Shown: piece after piece, positions 4,692 to 29,313 of the stretch
How positions within the stretch are numbered: the first letter of the stretch is position 1
Layout: each line of letters begins with the position of its first letter
IMG/VR virus record: IMGVR_UViG_3300032731_000065
Coordinates: 1-35,937 of that record
Length of the DNA stretch: 35,937 nt
Direction: 5' to 3' (one strand)
Source: a virus
Notes under the pieces: model-generated
What the model saw: the letters and a program-made list of their open reading frames with translations, nothing else
Databases searched by the model: none
Told to the model about the DNA's origin: nothing
Made by a program: the position numbers and the translations under genes

Positions 4692-5621
4692 CTAATGTAT
4701 AAACCATCCAACGCCATTTGAATATAGACTGATAGAATCATAATTTCCTGATATTACAGCAGTAGCTGCTCCATCTATAGTCTCTGCTCCTTCTGTGTCT
4801 ACTGTTATATTATTAGCTGAAGCATTCCCTCCTGCATCTTTAATTGTTATACATCTTCCCGCTGTTGTCTGTGCTGTAGGAAGCGTTAAACTTGTTACTG
4901 CTGCTGTTGAGGTATATGTAACATGAAGAAAATCATCTGTTGTTAATAGATCATATGTAGCTACATTTACTGTTGTAACAGTAGTTGTGGCTGTGATTTG
5001 ATCATTAACATACCCCTGTGTTACAAGTTTGTCATTATCCCCTGCCCCTGTTGAAACACTAACTATATTAGAGGTTGCACCATTTATAGCGATAGCTAGG
5101 GAATTATCTGTACCCCAGTTTATTTCATTATCTGTATCCCTCCCTACTGCTCCTGTAGTAATAAGGTCATAAGTTGAAATGTCTATATTAGAATCAGCAT
5201 TTGAACCGTCTAAAGCTAGGAACGATCCTGAGCCAACTTCCATCCAACCTCCAGAGAAAAAAACCCAGTGCACAAGTGCCAATAACATCCATATCATCTC
5301 ACCCTCTTCTGGTACTGTTTCTACCCATGAAGACCCATCCCACTCATATACATAGTCTTCTGTCCAACCATTAGCAGTTGCATCAGATATATACCTATCA
5401 CCAACGCTAGGGCCTACTGGCAATCCGCCTGTGGGGTCATATGTATCTTCAGCAGGCGGTAACAACCAAGGACTAACTTCAGTATCTACATAAGCTTTTA
5501 TACTTTGCTGAGTAGCAAGCGCATCATCCCTGTTAGATACCATATCATCTTCATCTAGTATAGGAGTGATGTTATAAATAGCATCTCCACCATCGCCGTA
5601 ATTTTGTGTTACTCTACTCAT
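4692..5621 (-). CDS. Tail fibre / receptor-binding protein with DUF2793-like middle
   Basis: 309 aa. Residues 21-46 (ILDEDDMVSN, ALATQQSIKAYVD) are a common phage fibre motif that recurs in the 511-aa fibre of this genome. Residues about 53-130 (GDRYISDA, YVYEWDGSSWVETVPEEGEMIW) resemble the DUF2793-type module of fibres, where a 'WxxxxPxxGxxxW' patch is usual. The C-terminal 90 residues (TSLTLPTAQTTAGRCITIKD, NNITVDTEGAETIDG, ending SNGVGWFIH) form a beta-rich tip domain found on many phage fibres. The start ATG shares one base with the preceding gene's stop. It probably recognises a cell-surface receptor. Confidence 0.8.
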   Translation of the reverse strand: MSRVTQNYGDGGDAIYNITPILDEDDMVSNRDDALATQQSIKAYVDTEVSPWLLPPAEDTYDPTGGLPVGPSVGDRYISDATANGWTEDYVYEWDGSSWVETVPEEGEMIWMLLALVHWVFFSGGWMEVGSGSFLALDGSNADSNIDISTYDLITTGAVGRDTDNEINWGTDNSLAIAINGATSNIVSVSTGAGDNDKLVTQGYVNDQITATTTVTTVNVATYDLLTTDDFLHVTYTSTAAVTSLTLPTAQTTAGRCITIKDAGGNASANNITVDTEGAETIDGAATAVISGNYDSISLYSNGVGWFIH

Positions 5622-5947
5622 TATCGTAATATTTTACCAAATTGTAAATTAACTGTAGCATCACTGCCTGTTGCTCTTACGAGCTTTAACTTATGTAAAT
5701 CAGCTCCTCTAAACTGTTTGACTGTTCCTGCTTCTAATAAGAACCCTACAGTTGTAGTTGGAGTGTTGCCGTCTACTAGATACCTAACAGAATTAGCTTC
5801 TACTTGAATGTCTAAAGCATCTGCCTCATGAGGTAGTTCGAAAAATGCTGAAGCAGCTGTTGCTACTAAACTTTCAACAGTCGTAGCTGTAGCTGTCACT
5901 GTAATTTGACTAGCACCTGCATTAGGTAGCTTGATTATACTTTGCAT
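5621..5947 (-). CDS. Small tail-associated beta protein, paralogue of the 8932-9267 product
   Basis: 108 aa (MQSIIKLPNAGASQITV...). It aligns along its whole length with the 111-aa product of 8932-9267. Both begin MQ-x-x-KLPNA-x-AS, share TAAS-x(6)-LP, A-x-D-x-QV, GNTPT and end with GSDATV-x-x-Q-x-G. Beta-strand alternation and lack of membrane or catalytic motifs suggest a small beta-sandwich virion protein, perhaps a fibre cap or baseplate-like part. No named family is recognised. The two copies sit on either side of the tailspike gene. Confidence 0.8.
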   Translation of the reverse strand: MQSIIKLPNAGASQITVTATATTVESLVATAASAFFELPHEADALDIQVEANSVRYLVDGNTPTTTVGFLLEAGTVKQFRGADLHKLKLVRATGSDATVNLQFGKILR

Positions 5948-8931: not shown

Positions 8932-9267
8932 TTATACTGTGTTAGTTCTTCCTACCTGAATTCTTACTGTAGCATCTGATCCTCCAGTTCGTATCATTTG
9001 AAGTTTATCAAGTGATATACCTCTAAGGCTCAACGCTTTAGTGTCATAAGTTTGTCCTGCAATTAATCCGTTAGCTGCTGTAGGCGTGTTCCCATCATAT
9101 AAGATAGTCACATCCTCGGCTGTTACTTGTAAATCAATTGCATTCAAATCTAACGGCAAAGAAACCGTCTCACTAGCAGCTGTTGAAATAGCTGTGTTTA
9201 AAGACAAGGCTGTAGTACTGACTGTTAGAACTGATGCTGCTGCATTTGGTAATTTGTATGTCTGCAT
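8932..9267 (-). CDS. Small tail-associated beta protein, KLPNA family copy 2
   Basis: 111 aa (MQTYKLPNAAASVLTVSTTA...). It is a clear paralogue of the 108-aa product at 5621-5947, sharing the KLPNA start, GNTPT centre and GSDATV-x-x-QVG ending. There is no transmembrane or enzymatic motif. Location after the HNH cassette and before the tailspike suggests a structural role at the tail. Duplication followed by divergence may serve two interfaces, but that is inference. Confidence 0.8.
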   Translation of the reverse strand: MQTYKLPNAAASVLTVSTTALSLNTAISTAASETVSLPLDLNAIDLQVTAEDVTILYDGNTPTAANGLIAGQTYDTKALSLRGISLDKLQMIRTGGSDATVRIQVGRTNTV

Positions 9268-15498: not shown

Positions 15499-15783
15499 TT
15501 ACTTTTTCTTTAACGCTTTCATTACCTTCTTATTCTCACCTACTAACCTTGTTCTTAACTCTTTCCTAAACTTTGGCATATCACTTCTTTCTCCTGGGGC
15601 TGCTTTCTTTAAAGCTGCTATAGTAGAAGTGTTTCTCTCAATAAGATTCAACATGCCTCTTTTAGTCTTAGGTAAACTAAACGGCCTCTGAGGCGTTACC
15701 TTTCTTTTGGTAAATGTCATTGTCTTTTTAGGGATCTCCATTGTTCTGGCCCTTACTTTCATTGGTCGTCTTCGAACTGCCAT
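15499..15783 (-). CDS. Small basic protein, PK-TK family copy 3
   Basis: 94 aa, extremely rich in Arg and Lys (MAVRRRPMKVRARTMEI). The segment from FSLPKTKRGMLNLIERN to RTRLVGENKKV aligns with the two upstream neighbours. Common positions are PK(S/T)K, N-x-x-TI-x-x-L, an acidic E, M-x-x-x-R-x-x-L and LR/LVGEN. The charge suggests DNA binding or condensation, or binding to packaged DNA inside the head. No named family is recognised. It immediately precedes the large terminase gene. Confidence 0.75.
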   Translation of the reverse strand: MAVRRRPMKVRARTMEIPKKTMTFTKRKVTPQRPFSLPKTKRGMLNLIERNTSTIAALKKAAPGERSDMPKFRKELRTRLVGENKKVMKALKKK

Positions 15784-15785
15784 AG

Positions 15786-16022
15786 TTATTTTTTCTTAGC
15801 GAATACTTGTTTCTTAGCTTCTCTGAACAATAACTTCCTTGTTACATGACTCTCATCTCGTAACCGTTGTCTTAACTTTATACGTCCTGTCTTCATCTTA
15901 GGCGTCTCATTCTTTACTCCTTTACTTAAAGCTTTAATCGTGTTTAAGTTATTCTTCAATAACTTCTGTCTTGCTGCCTTAGTCTTAGGCAACCGTTTCT
16001 GTTGATTAAATGAAAGAGACAT
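15786..16022 (-). CDS. Small basic protein, PK-TK family copy 2
   Basis: 78 aa (MSLSFNQQKRLPKTKAARQK...). It carries the shared core LPKTKAARQKLLKNNLNTI and MKTGRIKLRQRLRDE, followed by a Lys-rich tail ending KKQVFAKKK. It lies 2 nt upstream of copy 3 and 9 nt downstream of copy 1, so the three are one translational unit produced by tandem duplication. Predicted helical, with no membrane span; likely nucleic-acid binding by charge. Confidence 0.75.
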   Translation of the reverse strand: MSLSFNQQKRLPKTKAARQKLLKNNLNTIKALSKGVKNETPKMKTGRIKLRQRLRDESHVTRKLLFREAKKQVFAKKK

Positions 16023-16031
16023 AATATATGA

Positions 16032-16292
16032 TTATTTCTTTGGTCTTGATCTTAGTCTTGCTGCTCTTTTAGAAGCGGCTGGTGTTTTCTTCTGTGCTGC
16101 TGTAACTACTCGATTCTGTCCTCGTAGTTTCATCAGTAGATCCATTCGTCCTTCTCTCATCTTAGCAGTCTCATTAGGAAACGGTGTCTTAAGAACATCT
16201 ATAGTTCCTTTGTTTCTCATTAAAAGTGTCTTTTGTGCTGCTTTACTTTTAGGAGCTTTGAAGGCTTTACCCCTTTGACTTGTAACTGCCAT
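16032..16292 (-). CDS. Small basic protein, PK-SK family copy 1
   Basis: 86 aa (MAVTSQRGKAFKAPKSKAAQ...). The core PKSKAAQKTLLMRNKGTI and MREGRMDLLMKLRGQNRV aligns with copies 2 and 3. The C-terminus is a poly-basic tail (KKTPAASKRAARLRSRPKK). The repeated pattern of a helix with PKxK, TI-x-x-L and M-x-x-x-R makes a genuine gene family very likely. A DNA-binding or capsid-interior role is inferred from composition and position. Confidence 0.75.
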   Translation of the reverse strand: MAVTSQRGKAFKAPKSKAAQKTLLMRNKGTIDVLKTPFPNETAKMREGRMDLLMKLRGQNRVVTAAQKKTPAASKRAARLRSRPKK

Positions 16293-18357: not shown

Positions 18358-18546
18358 TCATTTACTTACATCTGTCAAGTCAAAAGCTTTCTCTTGGAGT
18401 TCTTGTTTAATCATAAAGGCTCTTGTTTCAAACTCTCGCATAGCAACAGAAAACTTTTCAGCTAAGTCTTGTTTCTTTCTTTTACGTTCTGGAGAGTTAT
18501 AAGGCAACGCCATAATTTCTTCAACATCTTTTTTAAAACATTCCAT
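18358..18546 (-). CDS. Small helical protein, first leftward gene (62 aa)
   Basis: The product (MECFKKDVEEIMALPYNSPE...) is almost entirely helical and highly charged, with a basic patch (RKRKKQDLAEKF) and a regular hydrophobic spacing that allows a coiled coil. It has its own near-consensus promoter (18577-18605) and terminator (18298-18318), so it is expressed independently of the late operon. It also lies beside the iteron cluster. That placement suggests a control function, for example an early regulator or adaptor, but no HTH is visible. Confidence 0.65.
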   Translation of the reverse strand: MECFKKDVEEIMALPYNSPERKRKKQDLAEKFSVAMREFETRAFMIKQELQEKAFDLTDVSK

Positions 18547-19142: not shown

Positions 19143-20555
19143 ATGATAAATAAAGTTATAAACCATTTACAGAAACAGAATCCCACAACACCACGGAGTG
19201 CTTTGGAACTTGTATTGTTTATAACTATTTCTGAAATGCTTTGTTTTAATAGAGTTAAGATAAACCTTCCTGATGGGAGAATTTTTCCTAACTTATATGG
19301 AATAACGTTTATGCCTAGTGGAGCTGGTAAAGATAAAAGTATTAAAGACTTGAAGAAATGTATTCCGTTCTTTGAAAATCAGTATGCCTTATGTTTAAAG
19401 ATATTAAAGAAAAGGAAAGAAAGGTTTGAAGAAGAAGTGTTAGATAAAATAAAAACGAATGCGGCTAAAGAGAAAAAACAAGACGAGGCTTGCCCAAGAC
19501 TAATACAGCCAACAGGAGGAGGAGGAACTATTGAAGGGTTTATAGGACAACGTGAAGAAATGGAGGTGTGTAGTATAGGACATTGTCATTTTACTAACGC
19601 TGAGTTTGGGAAGTTTTTAACAGCTCATAGTAAAGAGTCAGACCAGATCCTTAATTACCTCAACATGGTTTATGACGGGGACAGTGAAGCGAAAATAATT
19701 AAAGGGAACAAACATTCTAAACCTGTTAAAGGAGTACCTCAAACAATGTTTTCTTATTCATCATTACTAGGATTAACTGATGACGCTTTTGCAACACAGA
19801 AGCTAATGTCGTTTATAACCACAGGGCTCGGGAGAAGAAGTTTCTTATGTTTCCCTACTAAAGGAGAGTTTATGAAACCAGTTAACTTAGCAAAGATATA
19901 TAAACAGTTTTATAAAGAAGTAGACGAAGAAAGAATAGAATTAAGAGAGTTCTTTAAAAATGTATACAAAAACATAGAAATAGGAGAAGAGGTTGAAGCC
20001 CCAGTAAAAGTTGGAGATATGGTATATAAAGAGAGCCAGAAGCCTAAGAAAAAATTTATAAGACTTTCGAAAGTTATCGAAATAACAGAAGGAGCGTTTG
20101 AAGACTATCTGGAATATAGATATGAATGTGAAATAAAAGCAGAAGACCTTAAGAGCGAAGCGCTTAAAGTAGAAAGGTCTAGTAGATACTGGAAAACTAT
20201 TAAGTTAGCAGGAGTTATTACAATGATCTCTAATCCTGAATTAAAAATAACTAAAAAAATAATGCAAGAAGCTATTGCATATTCAAACAAATATGGAGAA
20301 CAAACACAAGGATTCTTTGGGACTATAGAGAAAGGAATGCCAGAAAAGATTTATGAATTCATATTTAATAATCCTAATTGTAAAAAAACAGATATCAGGA
20401 ATGCTAACTTGTCTGGGAAAAGAAGAGATGATACATGTTTTTTAGACAACATGATAAAGGAAGCTCAAGTAATCTGCGAAGAACAAGGAATGTTTTTAAA
20501 CACAGAAACTACAGGGAACTCAAGTAAATATTTTATAAGCAAAGAGCCTCAATGA
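19143..20555 (+). CDS. P-loop replication ATPase (DUF3987-like helicase/primase-type)
   Basis: 470 aa. The P-loop-like MPSGAGKDKS at residues 57-66 lacks the usual final GK(S/T) form (GKD instead), as tolerated in DUF3987-type proteins. It is followed by QPTGGGGTIEGFIGQ and a Walker B-like GHCHFTNAEFGKFL (147-159), then a sensor-like region with FITTGLGRRSFLCFP. The C-terminal part is helical with a winged-helix look (NNPNCKKTDIRNANLSGKRRDDT). It is the first gene of the early operon, overlaps the CHC2 gene by 4 nt and probably works with it at the fork. Helicase activity is inferred from family and context. Confidence 0.7.
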   Translation: MINKVINHLQKQNPTTPRSALELVLFITISEMLCFNRVKINLPDGRIFPNLYGITFMPSGAGKDKSIKDLKKCIPFFENQYALCLKILKKRKERFEEEVLDKIKTNAAKEKKQDEACPRLIQPTGGGGTIEGFIGQREEMEVCSIGHCHFTNAEFGKFLTAHSKESDQILNYLNMVYDGDSEAKIIKGNKHSKPVKGVPQTMFSYSSLLGLTDDAFATQKLMSFITTGLGRRSFLCFPTKGEFMKPVNLAKIYKQFYKEVDEERIELREFFKNVYKNIEIGEEVEAPVKVGDMVYKESQKPKKKFIRLSKVIEITEGAFEDYLEYRYECEIKAEDLKSEALKVERSSRYWKTIKLAGVITMISNPELKITKKIMQEAIAYSNKYGEQTQGFFGTIEKGMPEKIYEFIFNNPNCKKTDIRNANLSGKRRDDTCFLDNMIKEAQVICEEQGMFLNTETTGNSSKYFISKEPQ

Positions 20556-21104: not shown

Positions 21105-21323
21105 ATGAAAACAACGTACAAACTTGTGCACAGTGATTTTGCGAATGAACTAGAAGCAATTGTTAATGAACACTTAAAACAAGGCTGGGAGCTTTACGGA
21201 AATTTTGGCTACAAGCCTAGCACAGCAAAAGAAGCCTGCTTATGGACACAGGCTTTAATTAAAGAAGAAGGGCATTCTGCGGAAGAGCTTGAAGAGATGG
21301 CTTTAGGAAAAAGATCTATTTAA
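21105..21323 (+). CDS. DUF1737-like small protein, copy 1
   Basis: 72 aa (MKTTYKLVHSDFANELEAIV...). The layout YKLV-x(8)-LE-x-x-VNEHLKQGWELYG followed by a final strand and an ACLWTQALIKE segment matches DUF1737-type small proteins, which are common in phages and have no known function. It starts 4 nt after the primase-like gene. A second, diverged copy follows directly. Confidence 0.7.
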   Translation: MKTTYKLVHSDFANELEAIVNEHLKQGWELYGNFGYKPSTAKEACLWTQALIKEEGHSAEELEEMALGKRSI

Positions 21324-21341
21324 TTAATTAACCCTTATATT

Positions 21342-21572
21342 ATGAAGTACCAAATCCTTGAAGAAACAAAAAAGAAAACGTTTGAAGCTAAGCTAGAAGC
21401 TAAGCTTAACGAAGGTTGGCAGTTATGCGGTGGGCTTAAGGTCGAAATGGAACATTCTCTAGAAGACTTCTGTCCTGCTTACTATATCCAAGCTCTTATC
21501 TTACTAGACCCTCCGAAGACAGTAACTGTAGCAGACGTTAAAAAAGAAATGAAAAACATTAAAAAGAAATAA
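21342..21572 (+). CDS. DUF1737-like small protein, copy 2
   Basis: 76 aa (MKYQILEETKKKTFEAKLEA...). The core KLNEGWQLCGGLKVEM and YYIQALILLD align with the GWELYG and TQALIKE positions of copy 1, so this is a diverged tandem duplicate. The C-terminus is Lys-rich (KKEMKNIKKK). Function unknown. It is part of the early operon. Confidence 0.7.
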   Translation: MKYQILEETKKKTFEAKLEAKLNEGWQLCGGLKVEMEHSLEDFCPAYYIQALILLDPPKTVTVADVKKEMKNIKKK

Positions 21573-22868: not shown

Positions 22869-23555
22869 ATGAGTTTATCAGTACAAACAATCAAAAATCC
22901 TGCAACTAAGTTCATCGAATGGAAAAGTTCCAAGAAAGCTTTTCAGTATTTCGACAAAGAAGCAGGAAAAGTAGTAGAAATTAAACCCCCAATTGAATTC
23001 GTCGTACTAGACGAACTGTCAGCTATCAAAGGATGGTCTGATGAGTTTGAATGCGGGATATATAGCAATGAAATTCACAGCCTTCAGAATGAAGACTTAA
23101 ATGTTAAAGCTTTTAAAGGAGGACAGATAGTGTCAGGGAAATACTCTGAGATTAAAGACTCTATTAAAGCAGCAGGAGGTAAGTTTGCTAAGTCAGTATA
23201 TGCTATGTATGAAGGAGAGTTAGTTAACTTCCAGTTACATGGATCAGCATTATCTTGGTTCACTGATACACAGAAGATAGCTAAAAAAGAATCAGTGATT
23301 AAGATGGAGAAATCTAAAGAAGAGAAAAAAGGATCAAATAAGTATTATGTACCTGTATTTGAGTATGCTAGAAACATGGATAAAGAAATGTATGAAAAAG
23401 CTGTAGGCTTAGATAAAGAACTACAAGTTTATTTAAAAGCAAGAAAGGTTCAAGTAGCTGAAGAAGAAACAAAGACTCCAGAGACGGCAACAGCTGAGGA
23501 AGTGTTCGGAACAGGAAGCACTGATAAGACTACTATGGATTCTGTGCCATTTTAA
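22869..23555 (+). CDS. Single-stranded DNA-binding protein (phage type)
   Basis: 228 aa. The N-terminal two-thirds are beta-rich with aromatic positions suited to an OB fold (FIEWKSSKKAFQYFDKEA, IEFVVLDELSAIKGW, GIYSNEIHSL, FAKSVYAMYEGELVNFQLHG). A charged linker leads to a flexible acidic tail ending TTMDSVPF. The D-x-VPF tip resembles the conserved DDxPF tip of bacterial SSB, which docks partner proteins such as primase and exonucleases. It lies between replication genes and the RecU-like resolvase. The OB fold is inferred, not proven. Confidence 0.7.
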   Translation: MSLSVQTIKNPATKFIEWKSSKKAFQYFDKEAGKVVEIKPPIEFVVLDELSAIKGWSDEFECGIYSNEIHSLQNEDLNVKAFKGGQIVSGKYSEIKDSIKAAGGKFAKSVYAMYEGELVNFQLHGSALSWFTDTQKIAKKESVIKMEKSKEEKKGSNKYYVPVFEYARNMDKEMYEKAVGLDKELQVYLKARKVQVAEEETKTPETATAEEVFGTGSTDKTTMDSVPF

Positions 23556-25756: not shown

Positions 25757-26082
25757 CAACTGCAGTCTTCTTTACTTCTTATAACCCTGTATCAGCTCAG
25801 ACTGATTCAACCCCCTGCATAGGTGCCACTGGAGTTAATCTGTGTGAATACCCTTCTCGGGTCATAGCACTCTCTCAGGAGCTCGTAGGTAGACATGGAG
25901 ATAAGTTGTTTACTTACGGAGATAAAGTACGGCTCAGGAGCGATTTAAAGGACGAGAGATGTAATGGAGAGTTTACTGTATTAGATACTATGAATAAAAG
26001 ATTTACGAACAGAGGAGACATATTCACGATGGACCCAGCAGATAATGTAAGTTGTTACGCTGACCTATACACACTTAACTAA
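25678..26082 (+). CDS. Exported 3D-domain (double-psi beta-barrel) protein, lysis candidate
   Basis: 134 aa. A basic start (FRKG) and a moderately hydrophobic stretch to VSA-QT (about residues 21-42) look like a signal peptide. The domain that follows carries GDKVRL, EFTVLDTMNKRFTNRGDIF (D103, D114) and a final strand. This is the hallmark of 3D / RlpA-MltA-like double-psi barrels, some of which are lytic transglycosylases. Four Cys (47, 56, 95, 126) could form disulfides in the periplasm. Overlap with the spanin-like gene and the preceding holin-like gene support a lysis role. Confidence 0.65.
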   Translation: MEFRKWEDRLNEYCYRGFRKGAATPITTAVFFTSYNPVSAQTDSTPCIGATGVNLCEYPSRVIALSQELVGRHGDKLFTYGDKVRLRSDLKDERCNGEFTVLDTMNKRFTNRGDIFTMDPADNVSCYADLYTLN

Positions 26083-26088
26083 ATAATT

Positions 26089-26232
26089 ATGGAGGACATA
26101 ACTTGTGTACAATGTAATAATGTAATAGCAACGATATTTAAAACGCCTAAAGGAACTGTTGTATGCGATAATCCAGAATGTCCTAATTATGGATTAATAG
26201 CTATATGCCAAGAAGATATGCCTAAAACTTAA
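26089..26232 (+). CDS. Zinc-ribbon mini-protein, 47 aa
   Basis: MEDITCVQCNNVIATIF has C6-x2-C9, and VVCDNPECPNYG supplies C26 and C31, giving a treble-clef or ribbon spacing (CxxC-x16-CxxxxC) for one zinc ion. Zinc-ribbon mini-proteins of phages often bind host RNA polymerase or other proteins, but nothing specific can be said here. It has the TTAACTAAATAATT-ATG leader shared by its neighbours. Confidence 0.6.
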   Translation: MEDITCVQCNNVIATIFKTPKGTVVCDNPECPNYGLIAICQEDMPKT

Positions 26233-26251
26233 CTAAATAACTATGAAAACA
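26225..26251 (+). repeat. Duplicated gene-start cassette, copy 1
   Basis: A 27-base segment running from the end of one gene through the leader ACTTAACTAAATAACT into ATGAAAACA recurs exactly at 26764-26790. A near copy precedes the gene at 27302. The repeats place the same translation-start context before different genes and could recombine. Confidence 0.85.
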
Positions 26252-26624: not shown

Positions 26625-26765
26625 ATGAATAAAAAAGCAGCAACAAAACTAATTTATTACATAACTAAAACAACCATGAAAACACTAAACACATTCCTAT
26701 TCGTTGCAGTGGCAATAATCATTGCATTAGAATCTGTTAGGATTATCTGGACTAACTATTTATAA
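26625..26765 (+). CDS. Single-span membrane protein, 46 aa
   Basis: MNKKAATKLIYYITKTTMKT is followed by a hydrophobic span (LNTFLFVAVAIIIALESV) and a short RIIWTNYL tail. A second start at codon 18 (ATG 26676) would leave just the membrane segment. The gene has an AT-rich leader and ends 16 nt before the next start. Function unknown; a membrane-located early protein. Confidence 0.5.
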   Translation: MNKKAATKLIYYITKTTMKTLNTFLFVAVAIIIALESVRIIWTNYL

Positions 26766-26790
26766 ACTTAACTAAATAACTATGAAAACA
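26764..26790 (+). repeat. Duplicated gene-start cassette, copy 2
   Basis: Exact 27-base copy of 26225-26251, spanning the stop, AT-rich leader and first codons (ATGAAAACA) of the next gene. Confidence 0.85.
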
Positions 26791-27285
26791 TTTATAATCA
26801 AAACACAAGAAGATTTAGATAAACATAAAGATGAATCAGGATATAAAATAAAAGGGAATGCTGAATTTGAATCGTCTTTTGAGCTTATCGGTAGATTGTA
26901 TGTTGAAGGGTTTTTATCAATCAAGGCTGGTGGGTCTATCAAGGCTGGTGGGTCTATCGAAGCTGGTAAGTATATCGAAGCTGGTGAGTCTATCGAAGCT
27001 GATGGGTCTATCGAAGCTGGAAATAGCTATGGAATATCAGCAGGATTATTAATATCTTGTAAAGGTGTATTAAAGTTTGGATTAAAATGTTTTGCTGGCA
27101 TATGTACTTGGAAAGAAATATCAGATGAAGAGAAAACTATTACTTGTAATAAATTAGAAGGAGGAATAATTGAATATGGAATACTTAAAGAAATAGGAAT
27201 AAAAGAAGATAAAGTAAAAACAACATGTGAAGGAAAAGAAGTAGAGATAAGCAGAGAAACTGCTAAGATGCTTAATCTTTTATAA
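26782..27285 (+). CDS. Beta-solenoid (hexapeptide-repeat) protein, 167 aa
   Basis: An N-terminal domain of about 45 residues (MKTFIIKTQEDLDKHKDESG) is followed by six hexapeptides of the form SI(K/E)AGG between residues 46 and 81. The rest of the repeat-like strand series is SYGISAGLLISCKGVL, and the C-terminus is TITCNKLEGGIIEY and SRETAKMLNLL. The regular 6-residue period with Ile and Ala pointing inward fits a beta-solenoid or bactofilin-like fold. Comparable repeat proteins occur in phages with unknown function. The hexads may vary in number. Confidence 0.7.
   Translation: MKTFIIKTQEDLDKHKDESGYKIKGNAEFESSFELIGRLYVEGFLSIKAGGSIKAGGSIEAGKYIEAGESIEADGSIEAGNSYGISAGLLISCKGVLKFGLKCFAGICTWKEISDEEKTITCNKLEGGIIEYGILKEIGIKEDKVKTTCEGKEVEISRETAKMLNLL
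26917..27024 (+). repeat. Six tandem 18-bp repeats (in frame)
   Basis: Consensus TCTATCGAAGCTGGTGGG repeated six times without gaps at 26917, 26935, 26953, 26971, 26989 and 27007. The first two copies carry AAG instead of GAA at the third codon and the later copies differ by a few bases. Each unit encodes one hexapeptide. Confidence 0.9.
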
Positions 27286-27301
27286 ACTTAACTAAATACC
27301 T

Positions 27302-27508
27302 ATGAGAAACAAAGCTGAAATCGAACTATACACAAAAGATATGATGGAAGTCGTAATGATGATTCCTCCTCATGCTGAAGTAACAGAAGAACATGAGTTT
27401 ATGGGTAAAATTATTATCAGAGACTGTCAACAAAAAATATCTGATCTAATAGAGGAAAGTCAAAACACAAGTCCTGCAATGTCATACTTACATACCAGAT
27501 GGCAATAA
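27302..27508 (+). CDS. Small AE-Y-D family protein, copy 1 (68 aa)
   Basis: MRNKAEIELYTKDMMEVVMM carries the family head (KAE-x(3)-Y-x-x-D-x-x-EV) found in the products at 27724, 27963 and 28187. The remainder is helical (EHEFMGKIIIRDCQQKISDL) with no known motif. It has the TTAACTAAATACCT leader. Tandem paralogy shows the array is real; function unknown, plausibly a host-takeover or anti-defence factor. Confidence 0.65.
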   Translation: MRNKAEIELYTKDMMEVVMMIPPHAEVTEEHEFMGKIIIRDCQQKISDLIEESQNTSPAMSYLHTRWQ

Positions 27509-27530
27509 TTATAATTTAACTTTAAATGCT

Positions 27531-27731
27531 ATGTTCAGCATACACGTACCAGAACTAGACACAGTAAACAAGCTACACATTGTTGGCAAAACAAACCCTG
27601 AACTTAAAAAAGAAGCTGATGCTTTAATTGAGCAGCTTGTTAGTTGTTCAATTGATCACTTTCAAGAAGTCTTGAAGCCTTTAGCTACCGCAATATTAAT
27701 AAGATCAAAACTATATGGAAACAATGAATAG
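27531..27731 (+). CDS. Hypothetical protein inside the paralogue array, 66 aa
   Basis: MFSIHVPELDTVNKLHIVGK, then a helical body (ELKKEADALIEQLVSC, FQEVLKPLATAILIRSKLYG). It lacks the AE-Y-D head of its neighbours and seems unrelated. The following gene starts within its last codons. Function unknown. Confidence 0.6.
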   Translation: MFSIHVPELDTVNKLHIVGKTNPELKKEADALIEQLVSCSIDHFQEVLKPLATAILIRSKLYGNNE

Positions 27732-27966
27732 AAAGAAAGCTGAGCTCCATTTATATACTATGGATATATCAGAAGTACAAGTAGCAATGGCACGATTATC
27801 AGAAGAAGATCCAAGTACTGAGACTTACTTTAAAGAAGCACTAGAAATTGCAAAACTTGTTAGACAAACAATCAAACAATATACTGAAGATTCTGAGTTA
27901 AAACAATGGTACTCAGACAACCATTCTACATTTTCAACTGAATCCCTTAAACACTTTTTAAAATGA
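27724..27966 (+). CDS. Small AE-Y-D family protein, copy 2 (80 aa)
   Basis: I choose ATG 27724 (MNRKKAELHLYTMDISEVQV) because it overlaps the upstream TAG as ATGAATAG and aligns with the starts of the paralogues. An ATG nine bases earlier (27715) is also possible. The head KAELHLYTMDISEV matches the family. The body is acidic and helical, ending STESLKHFLK. Its stop overlaps the next start (ATGA). Confidence 0.65.
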   Translation: MNRKKAELHLYTMDISEVQVAMARLSEEDPSTETYFKEALEIAKLVRQTIKQYTEDSELKQWYSDNHSTFSTESLKHFLK

Positions 27967-28190
27967 CACAACCAGACGTAATAAAAGCAGAATCTAAATT
28001 TTATTTCCAAGATATCGAAGAAGTACTGAAAACTATATATCATGACGAAGTATTTGAGATGGCAATTTGGGACGATCCAGTAAGAGTGCTTAATCAGTTT
28101 GAATTAGAACAATATGGCAGAAGTGTTATGGAGGAGATGAGAAAGGAAATGTTAGAACGTTTAAATTCTTTACAACTCTTTGCTAAATGA
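27963..28190 (+). CDS. Small AE-Y-D family protein, copy 3 (75 aa)
   Basis: MTQPDVIKAESKFYFQDIEE contains the head KAES-x-FY-x-x-DIEEV. The C-terminal helix (LEQYGRSVMEEMRKEMLERL) resembles that of copy 4 (IKEGVRQSMKLEVINRL), so these two are the closest pair. ATGA overlaps on both sides make translation coupled. No known family recognised. Confidence 0.65.
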   Translation: MTQPDVIKAESKFYFQDIEEVLKTIYHDEVFEMAIWDDPVRVLNQFELEQYGRSVMEEMRKEMLERLNSLQLFAK

Positions 28191-28417
28191 ACAAACCTAA
28201 CCCTATAGCTGCTGAATTTGATTTCTATAGAAAAGATCTAAGAGAAGTTTTATATATGCCATATAAAGAAAGAAAATATAATCCTGATTTACCCCACAAC
28301 TCTCCAATACGAGCTGTTTGTCCAGACCATCTAGCAAGCATAAAAGAAGGAGTACGACAAAGTATGAAACTAGAAGTTATTAATCGACTGAAGAAATATC
28401 AGAAACCTATTATTTAA
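28187..28417 (+). CDS. Small AE-Y-D family protein, copy 4 (76 aa)
   Basis: MNKPNPIAAEFDFYRKDLRE has the head AAEFDFYRKDLREV. The middle has PHNSPIRAVCPDHLAS and the end is a basic helix (SMKLEVINRLKKYQKPII). It is the last clear member of the array, coupled to copy 3 by ATGA. Function unknown. Confidence 0.65.
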   Translation: MNKPNPIAAEFDFYRKDLREVLYMPYKERKYNPDLPHNSPIRAVCPDHLASIKEGVRQSMKLEVINRLKKYQKPII

Positions 28418-28427
28418 TTTATTTATT

Positions 28428-28610
28428 ATGAATGCACGACCCATTCCCAAAGAAACTTTAACAGTTGTTGTTAAATCTTACGCCGAAAAGAAAAGACAGC
28501 TTGAAACAACAGCATTTAATTGTGGGACAGAATATAATAAAGCTTTAACAATACTTAATACCTACAAAAGAATGATTAAAAGAATAATGAAAGCCCCTCT
28601 TAAAAACTAA
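28428..28610 (+). CDS. Small basic helical protein, FNC family (60 aa)
   Basis: MNARPIPKETLTVVVKSYAE, then RQLETTAFNCGTEYNKALTI and LNTYKRMIKRIMKAPLKN. The segment L-x-T-x-x-FNC-x(8)-I-x-x-Y-x-x-x-I-x-x-I also appears in the 81-aa product at 28797 (LQTMNFNC...YRLYIQTI), pointing to a second small paralogue pair. Function unknown. Confidence 0.6.
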   Translation: MNARPIPKETLTVVVKSYAEKKRQLETTAFNCGTEYNKALTILNTYKRMIKRIMKAPLKN

Positions 28611-28621
28611 CCTTATTTCTT

Positions 28622-28783
28622 ATGAAGTTTAATTTAATAGTAAATTCAGAACAACAAGATGGCTTCAAGCTTTCTATTCAAGCTGATAATGAAAAAGAGT
28701 TAGCTGTTTGTAAGGCGCTCACTACTTTACTTATAGATAAAATTACAAAAATAGAAGTGAAAGTCCAAAATGGAGAATATTAA
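28622..28783 (+). CDS. Small hypothetical protein, 53 aa
   Basis: MKFNLIVNSEQQDGFKLSIQ forms strand-turn-strand, then a helix (NEKELAVCKALTTLLIDKI) and a last strand (KIEVKVQNGEY). The compact beta-beta-alpha-beta look and clean leader support a real mini-protein. Function unknown. Confidence 0.55.
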   Translation: MKFNLIVNSEQQDGFKLSIQADNEKELAVCKALTTLLIDKITKIEVKVQNGEY

Positions 28784-28796
28784 TTAATTTATAACA

Positions 28797-29042
28797 ATGG
28801 AATCAAACAACTTCCTAGACAACTTAAAAGAAATGTATGAACATGATCTTGAAGAACTTCAAACAATGAACTTTAATTGTCCTAAAAAAACTCAGGAGAT
28901 TAATCGTCAAATTAATAAGTATAGACTTTATATACAAACAATCACTAACATTAAAACCAATGGTAGAAAAGACCCCTATTCGAGTGATCACTCAGAAATG
29001 TCTAAAGCTCGAAAGAGATTTAGATCTGATGATTATAGCTGA
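28797..29042 (+). CDS. Small helical protein, FNC family (81 aa)
   Basis: MESNNFLDNLKEMYEHDLEE, then LQTMNFNCPKKTQEINRQIN and KYRLYIQTI, related to the 60-aa product at 28428. Its C-terminal third (GRKDPYSSDHSEMSKARKRF) overlaps the next gene in a different frame by 83 nt. The conserved first 55 residues support this frame. Confidence 0.6.
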   Translation: MESNNFLDNLKEMYEHDLEELQTMNFNCPKKTQEINRQINKYRLYIQTITNIKTNGRKDPYSSDHSEMSKARKRFRSDDYS

Positions 29043-29313
29043 GAAAAACTTAATCAAAGAAAAGTTTGATCTAGCAAAAACTCTTCGGTCTAAAGAACAA
29101 ATAATTAGATACCATAAGAAACAAACTCTTTTATCTAGAGAAGCTTTAGAAACTCAGAAACATTTATATAGTAATGCAATATACAACTGTACAGAACAAG
29201 TTATTTATAACAAAGCCCTTAATAAAAGAAAACGTAAGTATAGACATAGACTCTACTTCATGTATATATCCTTCTTAATTATGTTAATACTGTTTTTTAT
29301 AAAATGGCATTGA
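28960..29313 (+). CDS. Coiled-coil protein with C-terminal membrane anchor, 117 aa
   Basis: A long charged helix (LKLERDLDLMIIAEKNLIKE, FDLAKTLRSKEQIIRYHKK) leads into a basic segment (KALNKRKRKYRHR) and a C-terminal membrane span (YFMYISFLIMLILFFIKW). The start overlaps the upstream gene by 83 nt. ATG 29029 would shorten it by 23 residues and reduce the overlap to 14 nt. The membrane anchor and coiled coil are clear; function unknown. Confidence 0.6.
   Translation: MVEKTPIRVITQKCLKLERDLDLMIIAEKNLIKEKFDLAKTLRSKEQIIRYHKKQTLLSREALETQKHLYSNAIYNCTEQVIYNKALNKRKRKYRHRLYFMYISFLIMLILFFIKWH

Follow-up and report, generated by a model that had tools for sequence, protein, structure and literature searches.

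A set of four small paralogous ORFs with a shared N-terminal head in the genome of an uncultured bacterial virus

Four small open reading frames (ORFs) near the distal end of a plus-strand gene block were found, judged from their sequences, to share common ancestry and to be real duplicated genes. They belong to an uncultured bacterial virus, and the window, that is, the whole stretch of DNA analyzed, is its 35,937-base record IMGVR_UViG_3300032731_000065. With middling confidence, we regard the four paralogs as small, probably two-helix, accessory proteins of an early-type operon, which would have one docking or core helix in common. The set is undescribed but of a common general kind. The ORFs of the locus, and two others that came to bear on the family, are as follows.

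27302-27508, plus strand: copy 1 (p1), 68 aa, acidic, pI 5.0; head KAEIELYTKDMMEV; own leader AACTTAACTAAATACCT-ATG
27531-27731, plus strand: intervening ORF, 66 aa, without the head; own TTAA leader
27724-27966, plus strand: copy 2 (p2), 80 aa, pI 5.6; head KAELHLYTMDISEV
27963-28190, plus strand: copy 3 (p3), 75 aa, pI 4.6; head KAESKFYFQDIEEV; model helices 6-32 and 45-74
28187-28417, plus strand: copy 4 (p4), 76 aa, basic, pI 9.6; head AAEFDFYRKDLREV; model helices 6-28 and 46-72
28797-29042, plus strand: possible divergent relative, MYEHDLEELQTMNFNCPKK; HMM E 0.03-2.5, depending on the omitted copy
18358-18546, minus strand: possible divergent relative within the minus-strand block, CFKKDVEEIMALPYNSPERKRKK; HMM E 0.03-0.9

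The original prediction, made from the DNA alone, had described a tandem array of four small ORFs starting at 27302, 27724, 27963, and 28187 and coupled by ATGA overlaps. All four ORFs were present and lay close together, but the array was not contiguous, since the 66-aa ORF separates copies 1 and 2; pairwise comparison and blastp revealed no similarity between this intervening ORF and the four copies. Likewise, ATGA overlaps were seen at the junctions of copies 2 and 3 (27963) and of copies 3 and 4 (28187), but not elsewhere. A gap of 22 nt separates copy 1 from the following ORF. The first 8 nt of copy 2 coincide with the last 8 nt of the intervening ORF (ATGAATAG), and copy 2 would be 83 aa long if its start is the ATG at 27715. 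The overlapping unit is made up of the intervening ORF, which comes first, and copies 2, 3, and 4. Copy 1 has its own leader and lies outside this unit, and is therefore probably initiated separately.

The head common to the four ORFs takes the form AE-x-x-[FL]-Y-x-x-D-x-x-E-V. At the DNA level, the corresponding pattern, GCNGARN6YTNTAYN6GAYNTN4GARGT, had exactly four matches in the window (27314, 27739, 27987, and 28211), one in each copy, and none in 100 dinucleotide-preserving shuffles of it, bearing out the common head that had been proposed. A profile search, named beforehand as the check on similarity among the four, recovered every omitted copy: in leave-one-out HMM searches the omitted copy ranked first among non-members in all four tests (E 2.7e-5 for copy 1, 1.4e-3 for copy 2, 7.3e-4 for copy 3, and 2.7e-4 for copy 4). 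The true copies scored 13.9-19.4 bits, and the top-scoring ones among 44,900 shuffled decoys reached 10.7-17.7 bits. In the copy 4 test, one decoy (17.7 bits) scored above the true copy (16.1 bits), and the family claim therefore draws on all four tests combined and on pairwise scores; a single leave-one-out test is suggestive, while the set of four makes a convincing case for one paralogous family. Pairwise z scores were 13.9 for copies 3 and 4, 6.6 for copies 1 and 2, 5.4 for copies 1 and 4, and 3.3 for copies 1 and 3. Copies 3 and 4 were homologous over their full length (72 aligned residues, 29% identity, blastp E 1.7e-7), while for copies 1 and 2 it was mainly the head that connected them with one another and with the remaining copies. 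The proposed divergence beyond the head thus applies to copy 1, copy 2, and the copy 3/4 pair relative to one another, but not within that pair.

Conservation of the head was found to act at the protein level. Across its 18 codons, third positions matched least in all six pairwise comparisons, and invariant residues were encoded by differing codons (GCT/GCA, GAA/GAG, TAC/TAT), that is, with synonymous changes, so that it is the protein that appears to have been conserved. Codon log-odds favored the reading frames given above for copies 1-3. For copy 4 they were 0.11 in frame versus 0.12 in one antisense frame, which does not settle this copy by itself, but its frame is supported because it is homologous to copy 3. 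These codon patterns also bear on whether the conserved stretch could be a nucleic-acid element, such as a regulatory RNA or a repeat, rather than a protein head. The stretch does lie at a similar distance after each start codon, and some genes of the block do have a conserved leader. Specifically, a 20-nt leader, AACTTAACTAAATAnCTATG, was near-identical before four genes including copy 1 (26072-26091, 26226-26245, 26765-26784, and 27285-27304; four matches versus 0.08 expected when up to three mismatches were allowed), and that of copy 1 was nearly the same as the leaders of the 26243 and 26782 genes. However, this leader is absent before copies 2-4, and together with the poorly conserved third positions and the different codons for invariant residues this makes a nucleic-acid element highly improbable.

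AlphaFold models, which cover copies 3 and 4 and were both built from one shared four-row alignment, consisted of two helices each at low confidence (mean pLDDT 71, pTM 0.35-0.37), values at which the placement of the helices relative to each other is untrustworthy. The invariant residues of the head, six in all (A, E, Y, D, E, and V), gathered on one side of a helix more than expected by chance (R 0.65, permutation p 0.02), which is weakly suggestive of a packing core or, alternatively, a docking face. If the former, the copies could be partly redundant duplicates, in which the head is needed solely for packing inside a helical hairpin while the tails drift under weak constraint. The two-helix model is compatible with such a core, the tails of copies 1 and 2 had no clear similarity to the others, and the genome carries several paralog sets. 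Yet all four frames have stayed open, three of the four keep a clear coding signal, and the invariant polar E, D, and E exceed what a packing core needs, and we consider redundancy of this kind rather unlikely. A Foldseek search against BFVD returned no match below E 5.8.

Two further ORFs of the genome weakly resembled the family, and we retain them solely as candidate divergent members. The ORF at 28797 had z scores of 4.35 to the ORF at 18358 and 4.45 to that at 28428, and the ORF at 18358 had a z score of 4.8 to copy 4.

The locus lies within what is most likely a complete circular assembly of a phage genome of about 36 kb, since a 141-base exact repeat is present at both window ends. The GC content was 35.8%. 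Among the matches listed, the large terminase subunit (TerL) was 45-49% identical to those of HTVC010P-type Pelagibacter phages over 92-96% of its length; these were its closest relatives, and the terminase can be termed HTVC010P-like. As in the window, the genomes of HTVC010P-type phages are of similar size (34-37 kb) and contain many small uncharacterized genes. In contrast, Shine-Dalgarno-like sites occur in at least one third of the longer ORFs of HTVC010P, HTVC024P, and HTVC106P, whereas the window is nearly devoid of them (1 of 60 plausible genes had one in the 20 nt upstream). The structural and packaging genes are on the minus strand. The plus-strand block starts at 19143, where a gene of DUF3987/primase type and one for a zinc-finger primase come first, and by analogy may be termed early-type. 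Elsewhere in the window, two adjacent small proteins (21105-21323 and 21342-21572) each matched Pfam DUF1737, and the protein encoded at 26782-27285 contained a stretch of short internal near-repeats (SIKAGGSIEAG...) and had no family match. The 22869-23555 protein matched phrog_6706 at 7.9e-40, and tblastn against the phage collection turned up relatives in Mycobacterium phages only, of about 110 kb among the matches listed, an odd pairing with an HTVC010P-like terminase.

An unusual TTAA signal lies upstream of most genes in the window, for example at 26226-26245, 26765-26784, and 27285-27304. TTAA occurred within -20 to -5 of 46 of the 60 genes, versus 21.5 expected by shuffling, and there were 38 occurrences starting at -15, -14, or -13; possibly, this is a non-Shine-Dalgarno initiation signal. 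It was not seen in nine related IMG/VR loci, one metagenome-assembled genome (MAG) contig, or three Pelagibacter phages. The window upstream regions recall those of Flavobacterium johnsoniae, with an A at -3 and A-rich positions from -14 to -11, while TTAA is not mentioned there (PMC6847099); beyond this translation paper, our literature search found no precedent. The scarcity of Shine-Dalgarno sites is compatible with a Bacteroidota host. That assignment was not adopted, because the TAHHTTTG promoter element was unenriched (16 found, about 29 expected) and the TTAA position was less sharp in two Cellulophaga phages than in the window. A TerL scan of genome contigs led to a Nitrosomonadales MAG contig and a Mesorhizobium locus, neither of which settles the host.

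The family has, as had been anticipated, no recognized counterpart in Pfam, PHROGs, NCBIfam, PADLOC, or PDB, in which all matches were weak, differed from copy to copy, and yielded no consistent significant family. The weak N-terminal alignment of phrog_8699, a family of unknown function, was to copy 3 alone (E 0.034); the other five candidates had no match to it, its model found nothing in the genome at E 10, and it was treated as chance. Searches by tblastn of copies 1-4 against phage genomes gave only matches at E 0.2 or worse. IMG/VR pattern scans with copies 2 and 3, and with the [LM]PYNxP motif from the 18358 ORF, retrieved nothing, and neither the 63 pattern matches from the four-copy alignment nor the anchor scans with the neighboring genes at 22869 and 30168 led to a confirmed relative. 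The exact head motif occurred in 22 IMG/VR stretches, none convincing as the head of another small ORF; these IMG/VR searches are blind to relatives with one altered fixed residue. One apparent fifth copy (MNPHLVAELQFYNKDIQEV, in L088, profile E 9.4e-6) is a 28-codon open stretch lying out of frame within a 481-aa ORF, and was therefore rejected as chance; it warns that a match selected out of an entire collection can reach a head-only E of about 9.4e-6 by chance. The family profile found nothing in 27 TerL-related virus records, drawn from the 80 TerL-anchored loci kept and representing distant relatives (at most about 49% TerL identity). Unlike the window, HTVC010P, HTVC024P, and HTVC106P had no match to the family profile. 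That the profile search did not detect the family in these 27 records and three Pelagibacter phages is as expected of accessory genes with fast turnover.

The original prediction had read the locus as a possible anti-defense or host-takeover array in an arms race with host targets. In such an array, the head would bind a common partner while each tail would neutralize a different host target and be kept diverse by the arms race. The conserved head with diverged tails, the distal early-type position, the lack of database relatives, and the fact that copies 3 and 4 carry opposite charges are all in keeping with this reading. However, neither PADLOC nor any other resource returned a match, and family library searches of the neighbors (26782-29313) recovered no known anti-defense gene or Aca-type HTH regulator, although these searches leave room for unknown ones. 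Moreover, the retention of diverging tandem copies, which had been taken as a sign of an arms race, is not special in this genome. Three tandem paralogous basic small proteins adjoin TerL (15499-16292, minus strand; blastp E about 7e-5 to 9e-9), and the minus-strand virion-gene block holds a paralog pair (5621-5947 and 8932-9267) that is 45% identical over 105 residues. Such clear paralog sets, the virion-side pair among them, were duplicated with no evident arms race; duplication is thus commonplace in this genome and does not constitute arms-race evidence. An anti-defense array consequently seems unlikely, though it merits consideration.

We therefore return to the reading of the four copies as small accessory paralogs. 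The four arose by duplication near the distal end of the early-type block. The head would form a helix with its invariant residues (A, E, Y, D, E, and V) on one face, which may pack against the second helix or dock on a single partner common to the copies. The second halves would have diverged or specialized, with net charges of about -7 for copy 3 and +6 for copy 4. Their role is most likely accessory, host-specific, and early, possibly directed against the host; rather than acting as enzymes, they would bind or block a protein of the host or the phage, which is a guess based on how small they are, where they lie, and their absence from related phages. Presumably, they belong among the small early accessory phage proteins, which they resemble in size, early-type position, and non-conservation between related phages, while sharing no sequence family with them. 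A more specific version, in which a constant docking helix is combined with interchangeable second halves and the proteins, with further divergent members at 28797 and 18358, are expressed as a set that acts on several host targets, strikes us as doubtful. Should the copies dock through their common helix on a single partner, with tails aimed at different targets, they would be a compact and easily tested example of modular phage effectors. As it stands, they constitute one more orphan family among the many uncharacterized small early genes of phages.
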